A stretch of 64,000 nucleotides of DNA. Origin: Ferrovibrio terrae. Lineage in GTDB: Bacteria > Pseudomonadota > Alphaproteobacteria > Ferrovibrionales > Ferrovibrionaceae. The stretch spans positions 780,001 to 844,000 of the forward strand of contig NZ_CP041636.1 of NCBI RefSeq assembly GCF_007197755.1, in the 5' to 3' direction. Shown in pieces: positions 4,291 to 32,856 of the stretch. The position numbers and the translations under genes are program-made. The notes below the pieces were generated by a model. The model was not told the origin of the DNA and made no database searches. It saw only the letters and a program-made list of their open reading frames with translations. The first letter of the stretch is position 1. Each line of letters starts with the position of its first letter.

Positions 4291-4316
4291 TACACCGCTA
4301 TTCATTCCAATATCCC

Positions 4317-4348
4317 TGTCATGGCCGGGCTTGTCCCGGCCATCCACG
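4317..4348 (+). repeat. Left copy of 32-bp inverted REP-like hairpin repeat
   Basis: It reads TGTC, then a 9-bp stem ATGGCCGGG, loop CTTGT, closing stem CCCGGCCAT, then CCACG. It is the exact reverse complement of 4660-4691, with no extension of identity on either side. The two copies enclose the GIY-YIG gene. The left copy ends 18 bp before the start codon. Confidence 0.95.
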
Positions 4349-4366
4349 CATGCCAGCTTTTTCCGC

Positions 4367-4654
4367 ATGGCCTATGCATGGCTTTACATCATGACCAACA
4401 AACCGAACGGCATTCTGTATGTCGGCGTGACCGGCGATATACAGCGCCGCGCATATGAACACCGTGAGGGCCTGATCGCCGGCTTCACCAAACGCTATAA
4501 TTTAAAGCGCCTCGTTTACACCGAGGCCCATGACGACATTCAACTGGCGTTGCAGCGCGAAGCGAATATGAAACACTGGCCGCGCGCCTGGAAAATCAGA
4601 CTGATACTGGCGCAGAATCCGGACTGGACTGATCTTTACGATACGCTCGTCTGA
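4367..4654 (+). CDS. Small GIY-YIG nuclease (COG2827/UPF0213-like) inside inverted repeats
   Basis: A 95-residue single-domain GIY-YIG endonuclease. The motif is seen as LYIM...GILYVGVT (residues 5-22); the catalytic Arg lies in RRAYEHREG and the metal-binding Glu in ALQREANMKHW. It is a standalone domain with no HTH or zinc finger. The start at 4367 is chosen because it gives the canonical MAYAWLYIMTNKPNG beginning; an upstream TTG lies inside the left repeat. No clear ribosome site is present. The stop codon is 5 bp from the right repeat, so gene plus repeats form a compact 375-bp unit between two unrelated housekeeping genes. Mobility by, or recognition of, these repeats is a hypothesis. 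Confidence 0.88.
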   Translation: MAYAWLYIMTNKPNGILYVGVTGDIQRRAYEHREGLIAGFTKRYNLKRLVYTEAHDDIQLALQREANMKHWPRAWKIRLILAQNPDWTDLYDTLV

Positions 4655-4659
4655 AAAGA

Positions 4660-4691
4660 CGTGGATGGCCGGGACAAGCCCGGCCATGACA
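4660..4691 (-). repeat. Right copy of 32-bp inverted REP-like hairpin repeat
   Basis: Exact reverse complement of 4317-4348, with the same internal 9-bp stem and 5-nt loop (here ACAAG). It begins 5 bp after the stop of the GIY-YIG gene. Its hairpin may also act as a transcript end. Confidence 0.95.
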
Positions 4692-4722
4692 CTGTTTGCT
4701 TTTCCTACTTCGACAAACCTGC

Positions 4723-4748
4723 AAGGGCCCCGGTCTCCCGGGGCCCTT
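4723..4748. terminator. Hairpin downstream of clpB
   Basis: An 11-bp perfect stem AAGGGCCCCGG with loop TCTC lies 6 bp beyond the clpB stop codon. T-runs are short on both strands, so this is a probable rather than textbook intrinsic terminator. Confidence 0.55.
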
Positions 4749-4753
4749 TCCGA

Positions 4754-7360
<2,607 letters not shown>

Positions 7361-8383: not shown

Positions 8384-8415
8384 CGTGGATGGCCGGAGCG
8401 AGCCCGGCCTTGAGC
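8384..8415 (-). repeat. Inverted partner of the 8336 repeat
   Basis: Matches 26 of 32 positions of the right-hand repeat at 4660-4691, starting CGTGGATGGCCGG. Only 16 bp separate it from the copy at 8336, and no gene lies between them. A further partial hairpin (GCCCGGCCTTGAGCCGG) overlaps its end. Confidence 0.75.
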
Positions 8416-31311: not shown

Positions 31312-32856
31312 ATGAAGCCCGCAGACGCTTTGCTTGCCGGAAATTATGCCACGCTGCCCGACCTGGTGCGCGCCTATGCCGAGGAGCGGCCCGACCATCC
31401 GGCCGTGATCGACGGAGACGGCATGCTGACCTACGGCCAGCTCGACGCCCGTGCCGATCGTGTCGCCGCCGCCCTGCAGCGCGACAATGCCACCAAAGCC
31501 GTCAGCATCGTCAGCACTTCGCGCAACGACTATGTCACGGTCTATCTCGGCGCCTTGCGCGCCGGCCTGGCCGTGGCGCCGCTGGCGCCGTCGTCGCTGC
31601 CGGAACAGATCGTCGCCATGGCGCAGGATGCCGATGCGCAGCATCTGTTCCTCGATGCCGACAACGAACAGGCGCTCCGCGCCGTGCTGTCAGACCTGCC
31701 GCCGCGCCGCATCCGGCTCGATACGCCGCAATTCGAGCAGTGGCTGGCGCCGGAGGGCAGCAAGCCGGCACCGGCCGAGCTGAAACCGGAGATGCCGTTC
31801 AACATCATCTATTCCTCGGGCACCACCGGCACGCCGAAGGGCATCGTGCAGTCGCATGGCATGCGCTGGCTGCACATGCAGCGCGCCAATCTCTACGGCT
31901 ATGACCGCGATGCCGTCACGCTGCTCTCCACGCCGCTCTATTCCAATACGACCCTGGTCAGCCTGTTTCCCACCATGGCCGGCGGTGGCACGGCCGTGCT
32001 GATGGCGAAATTCGATGTGGCGAAGTACCTGGAGCTGGCGCAGGCCCATCATGTGACCCATACGATGCTGGTGCCGGTGCAGTACAGCCGTGTCATGGCG
32101 CATGCTGACTTTGACAAATACGACCTGAGCAACTTCCGCGCCAAATTCTGCACCAGCGCGCCCTTCAGTGGCGTCCTCAAAGCCGATATCCTGAAACGCT
32201 GGCCCGGCAAGCTGATCGAGTATTACGGCATGACCGAGGGCGGCGGCACCTGCATTCTGGTGGCCGACGAATTCCCGACCAAGCTGCACACCGTGGGCCG
32301 GCCGGCCGAAGGCCACGATATTCGCCTGATCACCGAGGACGGCAAACCGGCGGCGCCCGGCGAGATCGGCGAGATCGTCGGCCATTCCGGCGCGATCATG
32401 ACGCATTACCACAAGCAGCCGGGCAAGACCGCCGAAGCCGAATGGTTCGACGAGACCGGCAAGCGCTTCATCCGCACCGGCGACATGGGACGGTTCGACG
32501 CAGACGGCTTCATGCAGCTGATGGACCGCCGCAAGGACATGGTGATTTCCGGCGGCTTCAACATCTATCCAAGCGACCTGGAAGCCGTGCTGCGCGGCCA
32601 TGACGCGGTGGCCGATGTCGCCGTGGTCGGCGTGGCCAGCGAACAATGGGGCGAGACGCCGGTGGCTTTCGTCGTGGTGCGGCCGGGCACGGCCGTCACT
32701 GCGCCCGAGTTATTGCTGTGGGCCAATGCGAAACTCGGCAAGATGCAGCGCATCTCGGCGATCGAGTTCCGCGACCAGCTGCCGCGCAGCGCCATCGGCA
32801 AAGTGCTGAAGCGCGAATTGCGCGATGAGTATGGCAAGGCGGCGACGCGACCCTAA
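31312..32856 (+). CDS. Class I adenylate-forming enzyme (acyl-CoA synthetase family)
   Basis: 514 residues. The ATP-binding motif YSSGTTGTPKGIVQSH, the YYGMTEGG motif, the TGDMGRFDADGF hinge region and the C-terminal lysine of PRSAIGKVLKREL are all present, so the enzyme should activate a carboxylic acid as an adenylate and join it to CoA. It is close in layout to medium- or long-chain acyl-CoA ligases; the substrate cannot be assigned. Its last codons overlap the convergent ChaC-like gene by 4 bp. Confidence 0.9.
   Translation: MKPADALLAGNYATLPDLVRAYAEERPDHPAVIDGDGMLTYGQLDARADRVAAALQRDNATKAVSIVSTSRNDYVTVYLGALRAGLAVAPLAPSSLPEQIVAMAQDADAQHLFLDADNEQALRAVLSDLPPRRIRLDTPQFEQWLAPEGSKPAPAELKPEMPFNIIYSSGTTGTPKGIVQSHGMRWLHMQRANLYGYDRDAVTLLSTPLYSNTTLVSLFPTMAGGGTAVLMAKFDVAKYLELAQAHHVTHTMLVPVQYSRVMAHADFDKYDLSNFRAKFCTSAPFSGVLKADILKRWPGKLIEYYGMTEGGGTCILVADEFPTKLHTVGRPAEGHDIRLITEDGKPAAPGEIGEIVGHSGAIMTHYHKQPGKTAEAEWFDETGKRFIRTGDMGRFDADGFMQLMDRRKDMVISGGFNIYPSDLEAVLRGHDAVADVAVVGVASEQWGETPVAFVVVRPGTAVTAPELLLWANAKLGKMQRISAIEFRDQLPRSAIGKVLKRELRDEYGKAATRP

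Follow-up and report, generated by a model that had tools for sequence, protein, structure and literature searches.

In Neisseria, GIY-YIG nucleases of the Ssn family reportedly cleave single-stranded DNA at the NTS repeat, as a 2025 paper on the family is said to describe, and the Ssn nuclease of Neisseria is said to modulate transformation through its repeat. GIY-YIG enzymes hydrolyse DNA and neither form a covalent link to it nor join it. Slx1 and UvrC, which share the fold, act on branched or damaged DNA. In the RAYT (TnpA-REP) systems, also called REPtrons, the gene copies within a genome are rarely recent duplicates, and the repeats turn over faster than the gene.

CGTC-tagged REPs have been described by Di Nocera (2013; PMC3733652). 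The main text of that paper reports them mainly from Alphaproteobacteria and without a dedicated transposase, equates dRS3 with CGTC-1, describes RAYT genes as flanked by GTAG REPs and does not contain the string “giy”. A literature search returned no published pairing of a GIY-YIG gene with a REP among the matches listed. Our analysis of a 64-kb stretch of alphaproteobacterial DNA (the window) points to such a pairing.

Locus, repeat and protein

The nuclease gene of the window lies between two inverted arms of 32 nt each, which are 100% complementary and 311 nt apart (Table 1). Pairing breaks just outside the arms at 4316/4692 (C, C) and just inside them at 4349/4659 (C, A), and folding as single-stranded DNA gives each arm a 9-bp stem and a 5-nt loop (-11.4 and -11.8 kcal/mol; z -5.38 and -4.31). 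Between the left arm and the ATG at 4367 there are 18 bp, and the stop at 4654 is followed after 5 bp by the right arm. A preliminary description of the locus had named exact 32-bp ends with sharply ending identity, the same stem and loop in each end, and a GIY-YIG gene filling the interior at these distances; our data agree with it in all these points.

Table 1. Coordinates of the unit and of related sites in the window.
Feature	Position	Strand	Description	Basis
Left CGTC-type REP	4317..4348	+	TGTC tag, 9-bp stem ATGGCCGGG, 5-nt loop CTTGT, CCACG tail; tag outward	Arm match, folding; family description in the main text of PMC3733652
GIY-YIG nuclease gene	4367..4654	+	95 aa	PF01541, conserved residues, fold model
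Codons 63-72 (QREANMKHWP)	4553..4582	+	End of E65 helix; Q63, N67, H70, P72 = 5-nt-loop signature, fits flanking REPs	
Right CGTC-type REP	4660..4691	-	Exact reverse complement of left REP	
Intergenic interval holding the unit	4291..4753	.	From Cys/Met PLP-enzyme gene (PF01053, ends 4290) to ClpB-like gene (4754-7360, named from sequence)	
Third 26-nt core match	8384..8409	-	3 mismatches; missed by a control-free third variant of the hairpin finder	
Site of REP dimer in relative G010	32834..32852	.	Dimer of 74 bp, outward-facing, + 20 unaligned bases in G010; window has 19 bp	

Allowing up to 3 mismatches, a 26-nt core of the repeat matches the window at 3 places and none of 100 shuffles, and a 28-nt core has 18 matches genome-wide and 0 in a backwards control; the repeat is therefore not a product of chance. 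Sixteen of the 18 copies lie away from the sole nuclease gene of this family in the genome. The repeat carries the features by which the main text of PMC3733652 defines the CGTC superfamily (CGTC/TGTC tag, 8-9 bp stem starting with AT, 4-5 nt loop, CCA tail, dispersed copies), and judged by its sequence it is a CGTC-tagged REP of the TGTC variant. With CGTC families 3-4 of the same text it shares the TGTC tag variant, the AT stem base, the 9-bp stem, the 5-nt loop, the CCA tail and the outward (HH) dimers; those families are presented there without a dedicated transposase, whereas the repeat of the window is paired with a GIY-YIG gene. Broader patterns find 46 REPs with a 5-nt loop and 18 with a 4-nt loop in the same genome. 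The latter appear to be orphans, as the sole family nuclease carries the 5-nt signature.

The protein matches Pfam in GIY-YIG only (PF01541, E 3.8e-14), and its predicted structure (pLDDT 95.4) has the GIY-YIG fold. Comparison with PDB structures gave 1zg2 (UPF0213) as the sole match below E 0.001, followed at weaker E-values by 1ywl, Slx1 and UvrC N-domains; the fold is common to all of these, and 1zg2 and 1ywl are structural-genomics entries with no function given. In an alignment of the window protein with 76 of its 80 best relatives (L044 and L078 were left out for an in-frame stop, L082 and L095 for shortness), there is no variation at Y7, R28, H32 and E65 and almost none at Y18 and N84; E65 is presumably the catalytic glutamate. 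Against the ortholog in relative G010 the gene shows dN 0.026 and dS 0.252, and this low ratio indicates that the nuclease gene is kept. The genome has two further GIY-YIG matches, whose ORFs measure 637 and 220 aa.

The homolog in Neisseria gonorrhoeae, which we take to be Ssn itself, is 45.6% identical over 95% of the query (E 2e-20) and sits among hairpins of the CGTC-1/dRS3 type, whose 4-nt loop class is as predicted from the protein. Both this system and the window combine a single-domain GIY-YIG protein with a repeat in many genomic copies, and at both the loop class is predicted from the protein sequence. The window enzyme is likely a REP-cognate hairpin nuclease of the Ssn kind. The window differs in its 9-bp stem and 5-nt loop, in the nesting of the gene within an exact outward pair, in its alphaproteobacterial host and in that cleavage is here a predicted activity.

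Other assignments fared poorly. A group I intron or phage homing endonuclease is not supported (TIGR01453, 20.2 bits against a cut-off of 56.05), and a search of 50,697 phage records for relatives of the nuclease gave 1 weak match at E 1e-6. With the RAYT systems the window shares a gene flanked by REPs, as described for RAYTs in PMC3733652, as well as dispersed dimers and, in its gene family, the rarity of recent duplicates within a genome, but its protein is GIY-YIG instead of HUH/Y1 and its tag CGTC/TGTC instead of GTAG. No match to the Y1 transposase domain (PF01797) was found in the window's genome, and the unit does not belong to RAYT/IS200-IS605.

Flanking REPs and loop class among relatives

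Flanks were examined in two samples. Sample 1 comprised the best 80 of at least 575 confirmed relatives, among whose records other phyla and classes were also represented; for sample 2, 385 genomes of the host's class were scanned, 138 of them gave 284 matches, and the 111 with the highest scores were taken. A strict hairpin finder required (G/C)TCAT or GTCAT before the stem within a flank limit of 250 bp, and a laxer finder, with its own ORF control (n=137), required GTC only.

With the strict finder, 48 of the 80 relatives carry REPs on both sides, 19 on one side and 13 on neither, as compared with 2, 16 and 107 of 125 control ORFs from the same loci, which were unmatched for gene size or dispensability. 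The laxer finder gave 51, 21 and 8 relatives against 1, 16 and 120 control ORFs, likewise unmatched. Of 11131 random positions, 0.57% had a hairpin to each side within the same 250 bp. Among the 48 both-flanked relatives the pair faces outward in 42. In sample 2 the strict finder placed REPs on both sides of 32 genes, on one side of 41 and on neither side of 38; some of these 38 have repeats with stems that do not start with AT (e.g. L162, L221, L227). Relatives lacking the flanking repeats, which the preliminary description had named as a refutation of its reading, thus exist by the strict definition (13/80, 38/111), but 48 of 80 are flanked on both sides. A motif-free test for matched inverted flanks (score >=20) was positive in 53 of 111 genes, in 11 of 591 cross-genome mispairings and in 15 of 120 same-genome mispairings.

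The two sides also match each other. After removal of duplicates, 185 genes were available, of which the laxer finder showed 98 with hairpins on both sides, 53 on one and 34 on none. Left and right loop class was the same in 88 of the 98 (5000 shuffles: mean 54, maximum 69) and the stems were identical in 44 (mean 3.6, maximum 13); the best hairpin per side faced outward in 67 pairs. The matched inverted flanks that the preliminary description had proposed looking for in relatives are thus found, and flanking REPs are a family trait of this nuclease.

Several single loci deserve mention in their own right. Five of the 111 genes of sample 2 have an in-frame stop; over both samples such copies are L148, L170, L172, L218, L221, L044 and L078, some of them still flanked by REPs, and L078 and L148 look like one gene from two collections. 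At L217 and L201 matched inverted flanks of more than 80 bp surround the gene; these are composite repeats exceeding one REP in length. A homolog on a Planktothrix agardhii plasmid (L253, 1501-1785) has an MmeI-type restriction enzyme as one neighbour and DISARM drmA as the other, with another GTC-tagged repeat on both sides. When Rhizobium plasmids were examined for a strain-level empty site, the 8 records containing most of the query all had the nuclease gene, and the Rhizobium plasmid gene L249 has no matched flanks (motif-free score 7).

Loop class goes with the protein. On a tree of 88 both-flanked genes it changes 10 times, against a mean of 22.6 and a minimum of 18 in 200 shuffles. With both samples pooled, the residues most closely tied to loop class were window positions 72, 67, 70 and 63, around E65. 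The favoured residues in genes with 5-nt loops are Q at 63, T/N at 67, H/R at 70 and P/S at 72, and in genes with 4-nt loops Q/R/A at 67 and K/N at 72. Both samples had contributed to this first choice of residues 63, 67, 70 and 72; in the out-of-sample test, residues and weights were chosen on one sample and applied to genes of the other with less than 70% identity. Loop class was predicted correctly for 29 of 32 genes (residues 70, 72, 93, 67; nearest neighbour 21, majority 17) and, in the other sample, for 22 of 23 (residues 72, 67, 63, 70; nearest neighbour 19, majority 14). Five of 6 further genes fit the rule, including those of Neisseria gonorrhoeae and Aeromonas caviae. Loop class was assigned by eye for these six, two of which are 85% and 98% identical to training genes. 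The failures are thus 3/32, 1/23 and, among the further genes, that of Sphingobium. Of 8 plasmid-collection loci, 6 entered the residue test; L249 was left out for its lack of matched flanks and L253 because its repeat had not been assigned a class.

The rule also holds away from the gene. With weights taken from the flanks of the first sample and part of the gene copies covered, residues 63, 67, 70 and 72 agree with the dominant REP class genome-wide in 23 of 27 and in 12 of 14 unmixed genomes (p 1.6e-5; 10 further genomes were mixed); the prediction is wrong in G163, G167, G255, G027, G132 and G210. G006 and G354 each have two paralogs with REPs of different loop class and residue scores of matching sign. 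An independent-pairs test on the tree of these short proteins yielded 1 pair on supported branches, so the link between residues and loop rests on prediction across samples. That the loop class of the repeats co-varies with the nuclease, a kind of link that the preliminary description had suggested checking, is indicated by these predictions.

Role of the enzyme and turnover of the repeats

Taken as a whole, the best explanation is a single-domain GIY-YIG endonuclease that targets the CGTC-tagged REP hairpin flanking its own gene, to which we assign a probability of roughly 0.78; that nuclease and flanking REP are cognate partners is, taken separately, highly probable. The gene sits between two REPs that face outward, much as RAYT genes lie between GTAG REPs. 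The protein would recognise the REP as a single-stranded hairpin, at the replication fork, during DNA uptake or in conjugation, and would nick at or near it, cutting of the hairpin being the obvious predicted activity of such a nuclease. Less surely, the nick together with host repair or copying may seed and homogenise REP dimers and the gene-bearing version. Because GIY-YIG enzymes make no covalent link, such spreading would need host ligation or recombination, unlike that by HUH RAYTs. That the enzyme spreads the repeats is a tentative part of the proposal, and we would lean against it; spread or control of the REPs may equally be its outcome.

Across the 385 genomes the gene goes with the repeats. 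Of 138 genomes that carry the gene, 51 have at least 10 REPs of either pattern, as do 14 of the 247 that lack it (OR 9.8), and at least 1 REP is present in 86 of 138 and 44 of 247 (OR 7.6), genome size, GC and relatedness being uncontrolled in both comparisons. For Y1 transposases the corresponding figures are 13 of 72 and 52 of 313 (OR 1.1, p 0.73) and, in a weak association, 34 of 72 and 96 of 313 (OR 2.0, p 0.009). The gene is thus a better predictor of REP abundance than Y1 transposases, and the Y1 comparison guards partially against confounding. RAYT/Y1 enzymes are rejected as the agent: besides giving no match in the window's genome, they are a weak general correlate, and only when single REPs are counted. 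Neither REP pattern was found in 52 of the 138 gene-bearing genomes.

The alternative that survives best is a gatekeeper role: acting on single-stranded DNA, either incoming or of the lagging strand, the nuclease would cut REP hairpins and thereby limit or shape DNA uptake and clear hairpins, the REPs multiplying by another route. The cognate pairing is common to this reading and to the best explanation, and the consequence alone sets the two apart. It would be in keeping with what is reported of Ssn in Neisseria and with hydrolysis that never joins DNA. Of the 14 REP-rich genomes in which no gene was found at E 1e-10, 12 keep their REPs with no gene detected even at E 1e-3. Some of these 14 genomes have congeners with the gene (G251 and G332, congener G151; G059, G185; G121, G392), which fits gene loss with the repeats left behind. 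Against this reading stands the rise of REP abundance with the gene, and the turnover described below leaves its agent unnamed; overall, we rate this reading just short of even. A separate case is G283, a 1.7-Mb genome with 120 5-nt-loop REPs and no homolog at E 1e-3, where the REPs may be orphans or serve another agent.

Comparison with close relatives reveals this turnover. Relative G010 has the same gene at the same locus plus an extra REP; G008 has the same neighbours, no gene between them and a 69-bp dimer of 4-nt-loop REPs in its place. A comparison of empty and filled sites, as proposed in the preliminary description, thus does turn up an orthologous site that lacks the gene, so that the absence of empty sites, named there as a refutation, does not apply; the difference may reflect loss in G008 or gain in the other two. 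Of five REP clusters of G010 compared with the window, one gave a comparable site (Table 1). A control-free variant of the finder gave strongly differing REP densities, with 2 hairpins for the window (64 kb), 9 for G008 (77.6 kb) and 13 for G010 (46.5 kb). Such differences in REP content show turnover and not its agent. Together with the age of same-genome gene copies, the differing REP density suggests that the repeats turn over faster than the gene.

A compact self-mobile element of the insertion-sequence kind, with the 32-bp arms as terminal inverted repeats and a nuclease that moves its own gene, is unlikely. It could draw on the exact inverted ends, on presence and absence of the gene at the orthologous site (G010, G008), on the several nuclease genes found in 78 of 138 genomes and on a gene tree partly mixed with respect to taxonomy (14 changes of order; minimum 6, shuffled mean 22). 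An insertion sequence should leave near-identical copies at several sites, however, and same-genome copies are rarely recent duplicates: the host has one family copy, and among 79 same-genome paralog pairs, from the fetched copies of 27 genomes, a single pair is at least 90% identical. That pair, L032/L036 (G012 C71; 95% identical, ~400 bp apart), is tandem and the sole recent-looking duplication. Moreover, 16 of the 18 repeat copies lie away from the gene. The site in G008 that would serve to judge a target-site duplication is occupied by another REP dimer. On the counts of copies the compact mobile unit of the preliminary description is weakened, while its REP-maintaining unit paralleling RAYTs stands as a partnership well supported by flanks, residues and REP abundance. 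A mere coincidence of neighbourhood, with REPs accumulating in intergenic DNA next to small dispensable genes and a nuclease that serves some other purpose, is improbable as well: some of these genomes are rich in REPs and some relatives lack them at the flanks, but the unmatched control ORFs are rarely flanked (2/125; 1/137), and the prediction of loop class from residues, at flanks and genome-wide, would be left unexplained.

Significance for CGTC-tagged REPs

A nuclease matched to its repeat makes the origin and turnover of CGTC REPs testable. The residue-loop rule yields specificity predictions for hundreds of homologs (at least 575 confirmed relatives) and could be of use for tools designed to cleave single-stranded DNA at selected hairpins. 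In its boldest form, which we consider an even proposition, our proposal is that the GIY-YIG nucleases of this family may be the missing dedicated enzymes of the CGTC REPs and form, beside RAYT/GTAG, a second REP-enzyme partnership of independent evolutionary origin, that the short helix with residues 63, 67, 70 and 72 around the presumed catalytic glutamate would be a readable code for loop size, and that these enzymes would drive the turnover of REP dimers. If this is true, two unrelated nuclease folds would have reached the same kind of coexistence with hairpin repeats.
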